Translations under genes and position numbers: made by a program
Part shown: piece by piece, positions 4,804 through 14,068 of the stretch
How positions within the stretch are numbered: position 1 is the stretch's first letter
Layout of the letters: each line of letters begins with the position of its first letter
Assembly (NCBI GenBank): GCA_028285415.1
Contig: JANQPF010000032.1
Coordinates: 1-64,000 of the forward strand
DNA from: Pseudomonadales bacterium
Lineage (GTDB): Bacteria; Pseudomonadota; Gammaproteobacteria; Pseudomonadales; Azotimanducaceae
Direction: 5' to 3'
DNA length: 64,000 bases
The notes under the pieces: generated by a model
Told to the model about the DNA's origin: nothing
The model's input: the letters and a program-made list of their open reading frames with translations, nothing else
The model's database searches: none

Positions 4804-5800
<997 letters not shown>

Positions 5801-6357: not shown

Positions 6358-7878
6358 TCAAACTTCCGAGACCGCAATGCGTTCGGCGATCTTTGCCGAC
6401 CAGACTTTTGGACCTTCTTTGTGGACCGATTCACCGCGAGCGTCCACCGAAACCGTGACCGGCATGTTCTCGACTTCGAACTCGTAGATGGCTTCCATCC
6501 CAAGCTCAGGGAACGCCAGCAGCGTGGACTTGGTGATGGCCTTGGCCACGAGATACGCCGCGCCACCGACGGCAATCATCGACACCGCCTTGTTGTCACG
6601 GATGGCGTCGATGGCAACCTGCCCTCTTTCCGCCTTGCCGATCATGCCGGCGAGCCCGGTCTCTTCCAGCATGGTACGGGTGAACTTGTCCATGCGGGTT
6701 GCCGTCGTCGGCCCGGCGGGACCGACCACTTCCTCACGCACGGGATCCACCGGACCCACGTAGTAGATGAGCCGGTTGGTGAAATCGACCGGCAACGGCT
6801 CGCCTCTGTCGATGAGATCGACAATCTTCTTGTGCGCCGCATCCCGGCCCGTCAACATTTTGCCCGACAGAAGGAGCGTATCGCCGGCCTGCCAGGACTG
6901 GATCTCCTCGGCGGTCAACGCATCGATATTCACCCGCTTCACATCATCGCCGAGCTCGAACTCGATGTCCGGCCACTCGCTCAAATCCGGCGGTTCGAAT
7001 TCGGCGGCGCCGCTGCCGTCCAGCGCAAAATGCACATGACGCGTTGCCGTGCAGTTGGGAATGACTGCCACGGGCTTGTTAGCGGCATGCGTCGGATATT
7101 CCTTGATCTTGACGTCGAAGATGGTCGTCAGCCCGCCGAGACCCTGGGCGCCGATGCCAAGTGCGTTGACCTTGTCGAACAGCTCAACGCGCAGCTCCTC
7201 CACGTGATTGGAGGCACCACGCGCCTTCAGCTCGTGCATGTCGATCGGATCCATCATGGCCTCTTTGGCGAGGAGCATGGCCTTTTCCGGTGTACCCCCG
7301 ATACCGACACCGAGGATGCCGGGCGGACACCAGCCGGCGCCCATGGTCGGCACCATATCGAGCACCCAGGCAACAATGTCGTCCGACGGGTTCAGCATCG
7401 CAAACTTGGCCTTGGCTTCGCTGCCTCCGCCTTTGGCAGCTACCTCCACGTCCACCTTGTCACCCGGCACAATCCGGGTGTGAATGACCGCCGGCGTATT
7501 GTCTTTGGTATTGGCGCGGGCGCCGTCCGGGTCGCTCAGGACCGAACCGCGCAGCACGTTGTCCGGATGGGTATACCCACGGCGCACACCTTCGTTGATC
7601 ATCTCTTCGAGGCTGAGCTCAGCATCCCACTGCACGTTCATACCCACGTTGACAAAGACAATGACAATGCCCGTATCCTGACAAATGGGACGCTTACCCA
7701 GAGCGCACATTCTGGAGTTCACGAGCACCTGGGTGAGCGCCGCTTTTGCAGCGGGTGACTCTTCGGTCTCCCATGCCTGCCGCATGGCACGGATGAAGTC
7801 CACGGGGTGGTAGTAGGATATGAACTGAAGGGCGTCAGCCACGCTCTGGATCAGATCTTCCTGTTTGATGACGGTCAT
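6358..7878 (-). CDS. Class I fumarate hydratase ([4Fe-4S] type)
   Basis: A 506-residue single-chain class I hydro-lyase that interconverts fumarate and malate. Three cysteines sit where the family binds its oxygen-sensitive [4Fe-4S] cluster: Cys66 (PICQDTG), Cys184 (GWCPPGILG) and Cys276 (IPNCTATRH). The C-terminal catalytic part includes VGGAAYLVAKAI and FEVENMPVTV. Its ATG overlaps the stop of the upstream gene by one base (TAATG), so translation is probably coupled to the selenoprotein partner gene. Related enzymes of this family dehydrate tartrate or mesaconate. Full-length similarity points to fumarase, but the unusual operon leaves room for another 2-hydroxy-acid substrate. Confidence 0.92.
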   Translation of the reverse strand: MTVIKQEDLIQSVADALQFISYYHPVDFIRAMRQAWETEESPAAKAALTQVLVNSRMCALGKRPICQDTGIVIVFVNVGMNVQWDAELSLEEMINEGVRRGYTHPDNVLRGSVLSDPDGARANTKDNTPAVIHTRIVPGDKVDVEVAAKGGGSEAKAKFAMLNPSDDIVAWVLDMVPTMGAGWCPPGILGVGIGGTPEKAMLLAKEAMMDPIDMHELKARGASNHVEELRVELFDKVNALGIGAQGLGGLTTIFDVKIKEYPTHAANKPVAVIPNCTATRHVHFALDGSGAAEFEPPDLSEWPDIEFELGDDVKRVNIDALTAEEIQSWQAGDTLLLSGKMLTGRDAAHKKIVDLIDRGEPLPVDFTNRLIYYVGPVDPVREEVVGPAGPTTATRMDKFTRTMLEETGLAGMIGKAERGQVAIDAIRDNKAVSMIAVGGAAYLVAKAITKSTLLAFPELGMEAIYEFEVENMPVTVSVDARGESVHKEGPKVWSAKIAERIAVSEV

Positions 7879-8978
7879 TATTGCTCCGTTGAGGGTGATT
7901 CGGTTACCGCAGCCAGGCCGGGGATCTCGCAGAACTGATCAGATTCCACCTTGACGCTGACGGCGCTGTTCTTGTGCTTACCGGCGCACCAGCTCGGCAT
8001 CACCATGGAATACAGGCCGCTGCCGCCGGCCATGAGAATGAGAATGTGCTCCGGGCTCGGAAACGCGGGATACGTCTCGGCGTCACCCCGTATGCCCGCA
8101 AACGCAGCCGCGTAGCGCTCGAGATCGGCAACCGACAGATGCGTCAGCTCCCACAGCCGCTTCGCCACCGTTTCGCGGTTCATATTGGCGTGCGCAAAAA
8201 TCTCGGCGTGCTCCGGATTCAGCACCACCACCGCTGACCCGCCCGTCAGCACCGCGTTGTTGGTGGCCATGTTGGCGAGACCCACAGCAAGCATCTGGAG
8301 CAGCTTCTCGGCATCATCGGGATCGTCCGCATTGCCGCTGTAAAGCACGGAGTGCGGCGCTTCAGCACCAATGACCGTAACAACGCTGTCATCCGGGGTA
8401 AAGCCACGCGCCACATGCAGCGGCGGAAAGGGAGAGTGCTCCTCGTCCTCCGCCAGACAATACGTGAACTTTCCCGGGTGACCGAGGAGCGCCATGTCGG
8501 AAGAACCAGGACGCGCGCCACCAATGTTGATCATGGTGAGCCTGAGCGCTCTGCCAATGGTGGCGTTGGCACGATGCCCGGGACCAAGCGCACCAAAACC
8601 GCTCGCTACGGGGCCGCAGGTTTGCCGCGCCGGACCGTTGACGATGACCAGCGGCGCCGTGCAGTGGGTGGTTGCCTGCATCTCGGTGAGATCGAACGCG
8701 GGGTCTATCACCCCGCGTACGGCAGCAACGACGAGCGGCATGTAGTCGGGCAGGCAGCCCGCCATCACCGCAGCGGTTGCTACCTTTTCGACGGTGGCAA
8801 CCCCCATCCCCGGGCCCATTTCACCCAGCACGAGATCCGCTTCTAGTCCGGAGGCCAGCACCATACGGTCTACCCGCTCCGGCGTCGGTACCACCACCGG
8901 CAGGCCGTCCGTACAGCCCATCTCATGCAGCTGTTCGAGGGCTTCGGCTTCGTCGCCGGCTTCGAGCATCTCGCTCAC
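7878..8978 (-). CDS. Uncharacterised cysteine-rich partner of the UGSC selenoprotein
   Basis: 366 residues with no family I can name. Features are an N-terminal GCTDGLPVVVPTPERV motif, no signal peptide or membrane helix, and seven cysteines: 22, 75, 106 (TTHCTAP), 121 (QTCGP), 174, 331 (SWCAG) and 350. Glycine-rich segments such as NIGGARPGSSD and GGSGLYSM suggest a compact enzyme-like fold. The GTG start at 8978 overlaps the TGA stop of the selenoprotein in GTGA, and the stop overlaps the fumarase start in TAATG. It is therefore probably made in fixed proportion with both. Its cysteines make it a reasonable redox or substrate-binding partner of the selenoprotein, but no activity can be assigned. 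Confidence 0.8.
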   Translation of the reverse strand: MSEMLEAGDEAEALEQLHEMGCTDGLPVVVPTPERVDRMVLASGLEADLVLGEMGPGMGVATVEKVATAAVMAGCLPDYMPLVVAAVRGVIDPAFDLTEMQATTHCTAPLVIVNGPARQTCGPVASGFGALGPGHRANATIGRALRLTMINIGGARPGSSDMALLGHPGKFTYCLAEDEEHSPFPPLHVARGFTPDDSVVTVIGAEAPHSVLYSGNADDPDDAEKLLQMLAVGLANMATNNAVLTGGSAVVVLNPEHAEIFAHANMNRETVAKRLWELTHLSVADLERYAAAFAGIRGDAETYPAFPSPEHILILMAGGSGLYSMVMPSWCAGKHKNSAVSVKVESDQFCEIPGLAAVTESPSTEQ

Positions 8979-9520
8979 GCTGCGGGCCTTACTTTGAGCG
9001 CGCCGATGATCTCATCGACGATCTGTTCCGCCACGTGGCGAAGGTTGTTGGTGCCCGTGCCAGCTACCGGATGGGGCAGCCGCACACGCGGCGCCGAGGG
9101 CATGCCGAGTGACTGCGCCACAAAGTCACCCTGGGGCCAGAAATCTTCGGTCACCAACGCCACCGAAGGGATGCCGAGTCTTGCGATACTGATGCCGTCA
9201 CGCACGGTGCCGGTAGTACAGCTACCTCAGTGGCCATAGGCGGCGATGGCAACCTGGCAGGTGTTTTTGATGTCATCGAGCATCTCTTGCGGCGCAGGGA
9301 TCGAGGCGTTGCCTTTGTTCCAGGCATGCACTTCGATCTCGGGCAGACGCTCGCGGAGGACCTCGCCAAGCGCGGTGAGAAAGTTCTCGGAATCCGGGAA
9401 GCCGTTGGCAAGTAGCGCCACGGTTGTGCCCTTACCGTCGCCGGCGGTGAGGTCATGGGCGAGCTCGTACGCCTCCATGGGCGTGGCCACTTCGCCGCGT
9501 GGATCGTGAAACGTAATCAT
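8975..9520 (-). CDS. UGSC-family selenoprotein (in-frame TGA read as selenocysteine)
   Basis: Two open frames, 9520-9230 and 9226-8975, lie in the same phase and are separated only by the TGA at 9229-9227. Read as selenocysteine this gives a 181-residue protein with Sec98-Gly-Ser-Cys101, the UGSC motif that names a known (seleno)protein family seen in marine bacteria. The N-terminal part has ALLANGFPDSENF and an alpha/beta pattern ending in VAIAAYGH directly before Sec. After Sec comes a helix (TVRDGISIARLG), a strand (IPSVALVTEDF) and LPHPVAG. This resembles the Sec domain of glycine reductase GrdB. A strong AGGAGG site lies 7 bases before the ATG. There is no signal peptide, so it is cytoplasmic. 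The stop overlaps the next start (GTGA). The reaction is unknown; a selenol-thiol redox role is inferred. selA, selB, selC and selD are not in the window. Confidence 0.9.
9195..9226 (-). promoter_or_regulatory. Candidate bacterial SECIS element
   Basis: Immediately after the UGA the mRNA can form two alternative hairpins. The first pairs GGUAG (+1 to +5) with CUACC (+11 to +15) around loop CUGUA. The second uses +14 to +32: CCG pairs with CGG, a G-A mismatch follows, then CAC pairs with GUG, closing the five-base loop CGUGC at +21 to +25. The second has the small apical loop with an early G, at the distance from UGA, expected for SelB-dependent bacterial SECIS elements. The two hairpins share bases +14 and +15 and so compete. 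Pairing was done by eye. Confidence 0.6.
9227..9229 (-). other. Selenocysteine codon (UGA) of the UGSC protein
   Basis: An in-frame TGA at codon 98. Both sides continue the same family-like protein, and the codon falls at the U of U-G-S-C. The true stop of the gene is also TGA, 83 codons later, so UGA is used in both senses in one message. Confidence 0.88.
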
Positions 9521-9586
9521 GATTTTGCCTCCTGAAAGACTGTCGGGAAGTTTACTCTATTGTGTCACGCCGAATAGACTGCACCG

Positions 9587-10828
9587 ATGAAAAACATCCG
9601 CCCGAAGTACCGCAACGGGCCGTCCCGCTGCGGCGCGCTCACGCTTGTGCTCATCTTGAGCGCCTGCGTGAGTCAGCCCACGGACCCGACGGCGCTCGCG
9701 CAACGTTATCCCATCATCGACACGCACATCGACGTGCCGTATCGCCTGTTCCGCAACCCCGCCGACGTCTCGGTTTCCGCACCCGACGGACAGTTCGACT
9801 ATCCGCGCGCGGTTGCGGGGGGGTTGAATGCGCCTTTCATGTCGATTTACATCCCCGCGGTCGTCGACATCGCGGGCAACGCCTATCCATTCGCCGAAAG
9901 TGCCATCGACCTGGTGGAGGGTGTCGCCCGAGCTCATCCGGACAAGTTTGCAATTGCAACCTGCAGCGAAGACATCGCAGCAAACATGCAGGCAGGACTC
10001 ATGTCACTGCCCATGGGCATGGAGAACGGCGCACCCATCGGTGGCAGTTTCGAAAAGCTTGCGCACTTCCATGCGCGAGGTATTCGTTACGTGACGCTCG
10101 CGCACTCGAGAAGCAACCACATCAGCGATTCGAGCTATGACCCCAACGAAGTGCACCAGGGTTTGTCCGCGTTCGGCAGGTCGCTGATTCCGGAGATGAA
10201 CCGGCTGGGCGTCATGATTGACGTCTCGCACATCTCCGACAAAGCCTTCTGGCAGGTCATGGAGCTCTCCGCCGTGCCGGTGCTCGCCACCCACTCTTCG
10301 ATGCGGAAATTTACCCCGGACTTTCAGCGCAACATGAGCGACGCCATGCTTGTCGCCATGGCGGAGCGCGGCGGGGTGATTCAGATCAACTACGGATCAA
10401 ACTTCCTGCATCAGGCGTCACAGAATTTCAGCGCCGCGCGGACGGCCGCCACCAAGGCTTACCAAGTGGCAAATCATCTGTCCGACGACGATCCGGCGCT
10501 CAGCGCGTTCAGGGACCAATACACGCAGAAAAACGCCTATCCTTTTGCCAGCCTCGATATTGTACTCGACCATATCGATCATGCGGTTGCCATCGCCGGG
10601 ATCGACGCCGTTGGCATCGGCTCCGACTATGATGGCGTCGGCAATACGCTCCCGGTTGGTCTCAAGGATGTCACCACCTACCCTAACCTGATTGCAGGTC
10701 TCCAACGTCGCGGCTACAGCGAAGCCGATATTGCCAAGATTCTCGGCGGTAACACGCTGCGCGTCTGGCGTGCCGCGGAAGACTATGCCCGTAGCAAAGG
10801 AGTCAACGTGCCATGCGCCAGCGGCTGA
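9587..10828 (+). CDS. M19 family membrane dipeptidase (renal dipeptidase-like), lipoprotein
   Basis: 413 residues. The N-terminus ends in LILSAC, a lipobox with lipidated Cys at about residue 25, so the protein is probably membrane-anchored and faces the periplasm. The metal-binding signature DTHID follows, then GIRYVTLAHSRSNHISD, IDVSHISDKAFW, ATHSS and GIGSDYDGVG. These are typical of zinc-dependent M19 dipeptidases, which cleave dipeptides, often with a D residue at the C-terminal side. It starts 66 bases from the divergent selenoprotein gene. Its end overlaps the following phosphoesterase by 16 bases, so the two form a unit of periplasmic hydrolases. Confidence 0.9.
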   Translation: MKNIRPKYRNGPSRCGALTLVLILSACVSQPTDPTALAQRYPIIDTHIDVPYRLFRNPADVSVSAPDGQFDYPRAVAGGLNAPFMSIYIPAVVDIAGNAYPFAESAIDLVEGVARAHPDKFAIATCSEDIAANMQAGLMSLPMGMENGAPIGGSFEKLAHFHARGIRYVTLAHSRSNHISDSSYDPNEVHQGLSAFGRSLIPEMNRLGVMIDVSHISDKAFWQVMELSAVPVLATHSSMRKFTPDFQRNMSDAMLVAMAERGGVIQINYGSNFLHQASQNFSAARTAATKAYQVANHLSDDDPALSAFRDQYTQKNAYPFASLDIVLDHIDHAVAIAGIDAVGIGSDYDGVGNTLPVGLKDVTTYPNLIAGLQRRGYSEADIAKILGGNTLRVWRAAEDYARSKGVNVPCASG

Positions 10829-11984: not shown

Positions 11985-12863
11985 CTACGACTTGAAGTGC
12001 GGCATGACCTCTTCGATGTAAAGCTGCAGATTGTCCCATTCAATCGGCGGGCGGAACGCAATGTTTACCCCTTGTATGCCAATCTCCTTGAAACCGCCGA
12101 TCATGTCGACCGCCTGCTGCACGCTGCCCGTCAGCGATCCGTCTGCCGCAATGTCGGGCTGCCGCTCGGAATTCATGTAGAAACCGAGGTTCACGCTGGT
12201 ATCGAGCTCAGCCGGATCACGGCCAATTTTTTCACAGGCCGCACGTAGCCGCTCGAGCCGGTCGGCGGCGGTGGCAACCGAGACGTAGGGCATGTTGAAT
12301 CCGTCCGCATATTCTGCCGCCAGACGAACGGTTCGCGCCTTGCCGCGCCCGCCAATCCAGAGTCGCAGACCCAACGGCGCCGGGCTGCACACCGCACCCT
12401 GCATGTCATAGTACTTACCGCTGAAGTTGACCGTTTCGCCGCGCCAGAGCGTCGAGATGATGGCAAGCGCCTCCTCGAGCTGGTCGAAACGTTCGCCGAG
12501 CGGCGGGAAACCGTAGCCGAACTCACGAAACTCCTCTTCAAACCACCCTGCACCGATGCCTATGTCTGCTCGCCCGCCGCTCAAATGGTCGATGGTCACG
12601 CCTGCTTTGGCCAGCACGCCCGGATTTCTGAAGAGCGCACAGAAGACAAGACAACCCACGCGTACGTTTTCCGTATAGGTAGCAAGTCCCGACATCGCCG
12701 CCACGCCTTCAAAACAAGGGTTACTGCGATCACTCAAGGGGTTGGCGTAGAAATGATCCCACACCGACACCCAATGAAAACCGTTGTCATCGCCGGTGCG
12801 CCAGAGCCTTTTCAGCTCTTCCATGGAAAGATCCTGCGGACCGGCATGGATACCCAGCTTCAT
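11985..12863 (-). CDS. LLM-class (luciferase-like, possibly F420-dependent) oxidoreductase
   Basis: A 292-residue TIM-barrel protein of the bacterial luciferase-like superfamily. Typical blocks are LGIHAGPQ at the start, VSVWDHFYANP, VRVGCLVFCALFRNPGVLAKAGVTIDHLSGGRADIG (read in parts), GAGWFEEEFREFGYGFPPLGERF and LWIGGRGKARTVRLAAEYADG. These suit enzymes using reduced flavin or F420. Whether this organism makes F420 cannot be judged here, so the cofactor is open. Its ATG overlaps the stop of the upstream CoA-transferase gene by four bases, suggesting a shared catabolic pathway through a CoA thioester. Confidence 0.88.
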   Translation of the reverse strand: MKLGIHAGPQDLSMEELKRLWRTGDDNGFHWVSVWDHFYANPLSDRSNPCFEGVAAMSGLATYTENVRVGCLVFCALFRNPGVLAKAGVTIDHLSGGRADIGIGAGWFEEEFREFGYGFPPLGERFDQLEEALAIISTLWRGETVNFSGKYYDMQGAVCSPAPLGLRLWIGGRGKARTVRLAAEYADGFNMPYVSVATAADRLERLRAACEKIGRDPAELDTSVNLGFYMNSERQPDIAADGSLTGSVQQAVDMIGGFKEIGIQGVNIAFRPPIEWDNLQLYIEEVMPHFKS

Positions 12864-14068
12864 GAGGACTGCTCTGCCGCCGTGACCACGCCGCTCGCAA
12901 GGAGACCCTGTATGCGCTCATCGTCGATTCCCATCTCCTTCAGCACGGCCACGCTGTCAGCCCCGATCTCAGGCGCGCGGGACGGCTTACGCTTCGGTGC
13001 TTCTGCAACGTTGATGGGGCTGTTAATCGTGAGCTCGTAGCCTTCACCCTCATCGTCGGTCGGCACGACGATACCGTTGGCGAGCAGCTGCTCATCCTCG
13101 AGAATGTCCGCCATCGGCTGCACCCGGCTGTACGTCACGCCGGCCTGATCCAGACGGTTGCCCACCTCTTCGATTGAAAACTGCGCGATGGCTTCGCCGA
13201 GCGCTGCGCAAAACTCCGGACGGTGCTTCATGACGGCGCCGACGCTGGCAAACCGCTCGTCCGACAGCCACTCGGTGCGTCCCAGACACTCGGCGAGCTG
13301 GGGATACTCACGCGCCGTGTTGATGACCGCGAGCACGACATAGTCACCATCGGCGCATTGGTAGGCATCCGTAAACGGATTTGGCCAGCCTTTCTTCTGG
13401 CGGTACGTACCGATGTTGTTACCGGCGATGACACCTTGCAACGCCATGCCGTTGGCCCACACGCCGTTCGCTGCGAGCGACGTCGAGACAAACGAACCTT
13501 CACCCGTTTTTTCACGACGGTACAATCCCGTCATGATGCAGCCGAACAGGGCCGTGGCCGTACAATGATCGCCCATGCCGGGTGACATCGGCAGAGGTGT
13601 CTGACCCGGCTCGCGTATGAATTCCATCAGGCCGCTGCGCGCCCACCAGCCGGTTACGTCAAACGCCCGTTTTCCTGCATCGGGACCCGCCAGGCCATAG
13701 CCGCTGATGTGGGCGTAGACCAGGCGCGGGTTGATCTCATTGAGGGTCTCATAGGCAAGCTGATAGCGTTCGAGCTGATGGCTCATGAAATTGGTCGTGA
13801 AGACGTCCGCCGCGACAATCAGCTGATGCACGAGGTCCTGACCGGCATCCTTGGATAGATCAACCACGAGACTGCGCTTATTCCGCGAAGTCAGCAGCCA
13901 GTGATACGGCACCGGGTAGTTGCCTACCAGCGCTCGATAGCCATCGCCGCCGGGCGGCTCCAGCTTCACCACGTTGGCACCGAAGTCAGCGAGGATCGTG
14001 CTCGCACCGGGACCGGCAAGATAGGTTGCCGCGTCTATGACGGTAATATCTTCGAGCAGATGTTCCAT
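12860..14068 (-). CDS. CaiB/BaiF family CoA transferase
   Basis: A 402-residue class III CoA transferase, which moves CoA between carboxylic acids. The N-terminal AATYLAGPGASTILADFGANVVKLEPP and RNKRSLVVDLSKD segments are family signatures. The usual catalytic Asp region (GMGDHCTATALFG) is present. A GGGGAG ribosome-binding site precedes the ATG at 14068. The LLM oxidoreductase follows with a four-base overlap, so this pair probably activates and then oxidises or reduces one organic acid. A second paralogue lies at 19.6-20.8 kb with a different partner set. Confidence 0.92.
   Translation of the reverse strand: MEHLLEDITVIDAATYLAGPGASTILADFGANVVKLEPPGGDGYRALVGNYPVPYHWLLTSRNKRSLVVDLSKDAGQDLVHQLIVAADVFTTNFMSHQLERYQLAYETLNEINPRLVYAHISGYGLAGPDAGKRAFDVTGWWARSGLMEFIREPGQTPLPMSPGMGDHCTATALFGCIMTGLYRREKTGEGSFVSTSLAANGVWANGMALQGVIAGNNIGTYRQKKGWPNPFTDAYQCADGDYVVLAVINTAREYPQLAECLGRTEWLSDERFASVGAVMKHRPEFCAALGEAIAQFSIEEVGNRLDQAGVTYSRVQPMADILEDEQLLANGIVVPTDDEGEGYELTINSPINVAEAPKRKPSRAPEIGADSVAVLKEMGIDDERIQGLLASGVVTAAEQSS

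Follow-up and report, generated by a model that had tools for sequence, protein, structure and literature searches.

A divergent UGSC-family selenoprotein gene from a Pseudomonadales bacterium and its constant partner gene

Introduction

UGSC was among the commonest selenoprotein families in a survey of ocean water (255 Sec genes; PMC2398784), and the accessible text of this 2008 survey also gives it as the family most frequently used in the non-marine samples (PMC2398784). A fusion of a UGSC protein to an uncharacterized domain, Unknown_1, is described there as well (PMC2398784). A thioredoxin-like fold has been suggested in print for the family. In the accessible texts of the literature up to 2026 we met no function or biochemistry of UGSC proteins, and no partner beyond the fusion of 2008 (PMC2398784). 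A further point of comparison is provided by PrdB and GrdB (PF07355), selenoproteins of the D-proline and glycine reductase type, which possess a Sec-x-x-Cys motif.

Here an analysis is presented of a UGSC gene in a stretch of 64,000 nucleotides of genomic DNA from a Pseudomonadales bacterium (contig JANQPF010000032.1), which is called the window in the following. The protein would appear to be half of a two-part enzyme, together with the product of an adjoining gene, designated PA, and to be distantly related to the Sec domain of PrdB/GrdB.

Results and Discussion

The gene and its in-frame TGA

The gene is located on the minus strand at positions 8975–9520. Its frame opens with ATG (9520–9518), which is preceded at 7 nt by the ribosome-binding site AGGAGG (9528–9533, minus strand), and runs through 97 codons to a TGA (9229–9227), then through 83 codons to the stop TGA (8977–8975). 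With the internal TGA (9227–9229, minus strand) decoded as selenocysteine, a protein of 181 amino acids with the motif Sec98-Gly-Ser-Cys101 is obtained. A preliminary description of the locus had claimed two frames in the same phase, separated by one TGA and forming together a protein of this length and motif, which was confirmed on the minus strand; as stated there, a mechanical list of open reading frames yields two fragments (97 and 76 amino acids).

The proposed membership in the UGSC family was borne out by the joined protein, with U at the TGA: PF24696 gave 154.6 bits (gathering cut-off 25) over residues 6–176. The score against the NCBIfam equivalog model NF041046 was 113.3 bits (profile positions 2–146 of 147), i.e., below the cut-off of 125. 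L050, the sole other subfamily member scanned, reached 104 bits and was likewise below it, and the window protein thus represents a divergent branch of the known family, outside the narrower NCBI equivalog. A UGSC paralogue of the same genome (contig C30), which also carries one TGA, scored 162.5 bits.

A search for the subfamily matched 62 of 195 genomes, the own genome included, and one TGA was present in every one of the 65 rows. The Pfam UGSC domain was found in 111 of the 195 genomes, with exactly one TGA in all among the matches listed. Since it is kept in all 65 subfamily rows, the TGA is neither chance nor a sequencing error. Homologues align across the TGA, as had been expected, with conserved residues downstream of it and with Cys at this site in 54 distant loci that were fetched.

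The genome (5.97 Mb, 99% complete) contains the machinery for selenocysteine incorporation. A tRNA-Sec with the anticodon tca was found on contig C4 (RF01852, 73.6 bits), adjoined by selB (TIGR00475, 409.9 bits) and selA (TIGR00474, 523.7 bits), and selD is present on contig C21 (TIGR00476, 271 bits); the check for sel genes that the preliminary description had called for was therefore positive throughout. The window gene very probably encodes a genuine selenoprotein, and the support for insertion of selenocysteine at the TGA is as good as sequence permits.

A predicted SECIS hairpin

An Rfam scan of the window gave no match, and the SECIS element was therefore approached via codon conservation. 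Downstream of the TGA, each of the positions +5 to +10 (ACC GGC ACC GTG CGT GAC) uses a single codon throughout the 31 subfamily loci, window included; for +5 this statement covers the 24 loci with Thr, for +6 to +10 all 31. Synonymous diversity was 0.00 in this segment, the lowest of 91 windows, whereas outside +5 to +11 it averaged 0.60. The segment contains a predicted hairpin, CCG-G-CAC [CGTGC] GTG-A-CGG (9195–9213, minus strand), 16–34 nt downstream of the T of the TGA, which is present in the single-strand fold. Every base pair of it is invariant in the 26 distinct rows that were left after merging identical rows of the 31 loci; never-varying pairs are uninformative alone, and the freezing of codons is the chief evidence for a SECIS element.

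In other subfamilies (35 loci, merged to 24 rows for pair counts) the same codons are nearly frozen, with a mean diversity of 0.023 versus 0.577, the lowest of 81 windows. The hairpin formed at this position is another one, with pairs 16–30 to 21–25. At pair 20–26, 20 rows show C-G and 4 show G-C, probably through a single event; 17–29 is G-T or G-C, five of the 24 rows have T-T at 21–25, and G22 does not vary. The fold energy of the 62-nt region around the TGA was ordinary (z 0.05; 96 of 200 shuffles equal or better). Cys homologues as a control gave 0.40 inside versus 0.52 outside, a comparison which is not informative, with three usable positions and sequences from many phyla. As judged from these alignments, the frozen hairpin at +16 to +34 is consistent with a bacterial SECIS element.

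Distribution and exchange of the Sec residue

The 54 loci with Cys for Sec were retrieved from public genomes with a pattern in which U was treated as C and which could thus detect Cys forms only; they belong to haloarchaea, Methanobacteriaceae, actinobacteria, sphingomonads and others. The motif U/C-G-S-C was invariant in 24 aligned rows, with exchange of Sec and Cys. The branch of the window shows UGSCTTG..RD, whereas other UGSC branches have UGSC[TS]TC..HD or UGSCTSW..HD. The preliminary description had spoken of a family of marine bacteria. This term is too narrow, considering the non-marine samples in the accessible text of that survey and the occurrence in haloarchaea, methanogens and actinobacteria. 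The methanogens are represented by three loci of Methanobacteriaceae with Cys-type UGSC (L078, L084, L098); in L098, UGSC follows a lysyl-tRNA synthetase gene, and an AstE/AspA-like gene is situated between UGSC and PA.

Met was found at the Sec site in UGSC-PA fusions on plasmids of Sporomusa termitida and Vibrio europaeus, which read D-M-G-T-S versus D-U/C-G-S-C elsewhere. The two fusions (L189:7317-9041 and L194:7392-9077) are located near aconitase X and DUF126 genes; the Pfam UGSC model scored 28.3 bits, just above its cut-off, on one and 24.9 bits, just below, on the other. Lacking a redox residue at the Sec site, these variants mean that the complex can exist without one there, and they speak against a role that is redox alone. 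Another relative resembling the window branch (L197:2595-3091) has Cys (TGC) at the Sec site, while its reading frame is disrupted by both a frameshift and an in-frame TGA; it is possibly a decaying gene or an assembly error.

The partner gene PA

The stop of the UGSC gene overlaps the GTG start of PA in the sequence GTGA. PA (7878–8978, minus strand) encodes 366 amino acids and belongs to no known family: among 33 members, none had a match better than E 0.026 in Pfam or better than E 0.043 in NCBIfam, and a comparison with PDB sequences gave nothing convincing (best E 0.26). Residues conserved in PA include D24, G25, R143, K170, C174, E177 and H209. PA is absent from the preliminary description.

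All 30 subfamily loci have PA within 1.5 kb of UGSC, and it is near UGSC in 53 of the 54 Cys loci, the one without it being L090. In the first set of Sec loci it was within 1.5 kb in 36 of 38 (one place counted twice, and the entry for L025 being a wrong fragment, as the first of two matches was taken); those without PA were L028, which had none within 1.5 kb on each side, and L037, which is cut. Both gene orders occur. In 23 of the 54 Cys loci UGSC and PA are joined in a single open frame, and the same was seen with Sec in L046–L049, four loci selected for long frames. A search for PA by itself, covering 398 genomes of the phylum, gave eight matches in five genomes (own included), with a UGSC domain in each locus. 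Of 24 plasmid records bearing PA, six were opened and all six had a UGSC domain, two of them only with diverged domains. Whether as neighbours or as a fusion, the two occur together in bacteria and archaea alike and thus form one unit, and since UGSC is nearly always beside or fused to PA, the proteins are probably halves of one enzyme.

On a haloarchaeal plasmid (L190:5370-8032) two PA genes flank one Cys-type UGSC, and likewise in L067 and L068; this arrangement might reflect a hetero-oligomer.

The fusion in the GOS survey of 2008 similarly joins a UGSC protein to an uncharacterized domain (PMC2398784). The accessible text gives a fusion to Unknown_1, but not a constant pair of UGSC and PA (PMC2398784). 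PA is probably identical with this Unknown_1 domain.

Gene neighbourhood

The stop of PA overlaps by one base the start of the third gene of the run, which encodes a hydro-lyase of the class I (Fe-S) fumarase type (6358–7878, minus strand; PF05681/PF05683). A thioredoxin-disulfide reductase gene is a convergent neighbour (4862–5800, plus strand; TIGR01292, 380.2 bits, above cut-off). On the other side, a membrane dipeptidase gene (peptidase M19; 9587–10828) is divergent from UGSC, and genes for an F420-type LLM oxidoreductase (11985–12863, minus strand; TIGR03560, above cut-off) and a family III CoA-transferase (12860–14068, minus strand; PF02515) are recurrent looser neighbours.

Recurrence was counted in 21 subfamily neighbourhoods of at most 17 kb, around the window gene and 20 of the 64 remaining rows; contig ends truncate some of them. 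At some loci UGSC or PA escaped the gene caller, and part of the counts may therefore be low. The dipeptidase cluster occurred in seven of the 21, the F420-type cluster in five and the CoA-transferase cluster in ten, the latter also in 17 other neighbourhoods (of which L053 and L193 are one place). Class I fumarase was found in 9/21 and thioredoxin reductase in 8/21, in both cases within one genus, and thus the shared order may be plain inheritance. Outside the subfamily, thioredoxin reductase was close in 4 of 59 neighbourhoods, i.e., 53 of the 54 Cys loci (L055, with less than 3.5 kb, was left out) and six plasmids. The four loci, from a Variovorax plasmid, a Roseovarius plasmid, Yinghuangia soli and a Mycobacteriaceae MAG, all pass TIGR01292; in the last of these a thioredoxin reductase-thioredoxin fusion (L074:6205-7548) immediately precedes a Cys-type UGSC-PA fusion on the same strand. 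Further neighbours of UGSC or PA were TRAP and tricarboxylate transporters, CoA-ester lyase, aconitase X, MmgE/PrpD and adenylosuccinate-lyase-like genes. These neighbours point to organic-acid catabolism; UGSC and PA are probably two halves of one enzyme for small organic acids.

Predicted fold and relationship to PrdB/GrdB

The thioredoxin-like fold has a mixed sheet in the order bab-a-bba. The predicted model of UGSC (pLDDT 90) consists of five strands in strict alternation with five helices, which does not agree with that fold; its structural neighbours are CheY-, flavodoxin-, PurE- and B12-domain-like. A flavodoxin-like sandwich is therefore predicted. Fold searches with UGSC returned generic alpha/beta sandwiches only, with a designed protein ranking first by Z; PA was barely covered, as the UGSC domain filled the match list. 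No GrdB or PrdB chain was among the matches listed, which excludes nothing. A search against PDB sequences gave nothing for UGSC (best match an antibody chain, E 0.043).

Profile comparison with hhalign aligned UGSC with PrdB at a score of 36.7 (P 1.4e-4), Sec on Sec, over 68 columns only and with an hhalign probability of 52%. The UGSC profile comprised 110 sequences from 107 loci, with the window in twice, as itself and as L106; for the PrdB profile, 33 loci were fetched and the 27 that showed the expected motif and a length of 200 residues or more were used. Two hundred shuffles gave scores of at most 21.1 and the reversed profile 14.1; with the Sec motifs masked, 33.7 was obtained. A smaller UGSC profile of 24 rows scored 29.5 against PrdB (P 0.0023, probability 12.7%). 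As control families, response regulators gave 12.8 and Asp/Glu racemases 13.5 (P 0.4 for both) against UGSC, from profiles of 14/30 and 25/30 fetched loci, respectively, picked by ORF length. Response regulators share this kind of fold according to the structural-neighbour list of the UGSC model, and racemases share such an alpha/beta sandwich as well; the PrdB profile scored 20.4 against the racemases. A kinship of UGSC with the Asp/Glu racemases was rejected, its score being at noise level.

UGSC thus resembles PrdB/GrdB in having Sec-x-x-Cys in register in the profile alignment. It differs from them as a single small domain, paired with a protein of neither the PrdA/GrdE type nor any other family; no PrdA- or GrdE-type partner was met, the 33 PA members having no Pfam or NCBIfam match at the E values given above. 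At E up to 0.001 the window protein matched PF24696 alone and not PF07355. The profile scores, which are supportive but weak, suggest that UGSC may be distantly related to the Sec domain of PrdB/GrdB.

In a search of 58 related genomes, 34 contained the PF07355 family itself. The own genome has four matches of this GrdB/PrdB type with an in-frame TGA (L136–L139; contigs C11, C2 twice, and C15), three with the motif U-P-x-C and the fourth with U-P-L-D.

Proposed role and alternatives

For UGSC we give about an even chance to the role of selenol subunit in a two-part enzyme of organic-acid catabolism, related to PrdB/GrdB, paired with PA and probably recycled by thioredoxin. The selenolate, at the start of the helix after the third strand, would attack a substrate that PA holds or that both proteins share; Cys101 would resolve the intermediate as a selenenylsulfide, and NADPH, thioredoxin reductase and thioredoxin would reset the protein. 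Judging from the neighbours, the substrate could be a small (hydroxy)carboxylic acid, either free or as the CoA ester, and in the genus of the window the product may be handed to the fumarase-type hydro-lyase of the same gene run. The wider proposition, that UGSC and PA constitute an enzyme class not described so far, namely a selenol reductase for organic acids that is recycled by thioredoxin, encoded in catabolic gene clusters, remotely related to PrdB/GrdB and with Sec and Cys forms in bacteria and archaea, is put forward more tentatively, with somewhat less than even confidence.

The strongest competitor, although we consider it rather unlikely, is an isomerase, racemase or lyase without redox chemistry, which would use its selenolate or thiolate as a nucleophile only and would feed the fumarase-type enzyme. 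The many hydro-lyase and CoA-enzyme neighbours (class I fumarase, aconitase X, DUF126, MmgE/PrpD) would suit such an activity, as would the Met variants without a redox pair; but the invariant U/C-G-S-C pair and the recurrent thioredoxin reductase suggest disulfide turnover, and the direct comparison with Asp/Glu racemases (13.5) was at noise. A general thioredoxin-like thiol oxidoreductase, with PA as a frequent neighbour only, could be imagined on account of the UxxC motif. This appears improbable, since the alternating strands and helices of the model and its CheY-, flavodoxin-, PurE- and B12-domain-like neighbours do not support a thioredoxin-like protein, nor does PA look incidental when it is present at nearly every locus and fused in many. 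That the TGA is a true stop, in a locus that is split, decaying or affected by a sequencing error, would account for the two frames of the mechanical list, but is hardly credible in view of the TGA in 65/65 subfamily rows, the conserved residues beyond it, the frozen synonymous codons at the SECIS position and the Sec machinery of the genome.

Conclusions

On the sequence evidence, the window gene is a new, divergent member of the known UGSC family. The parts worth following are the constant, unnamed partner PA and the link to PrdB/GrdB. The constant partner, a predicted fold unlike the published guess, the putative links to PrdB/GrdB and thioredoxin reductase, and the organic-acid neighbours make the function of UGSC assayable.
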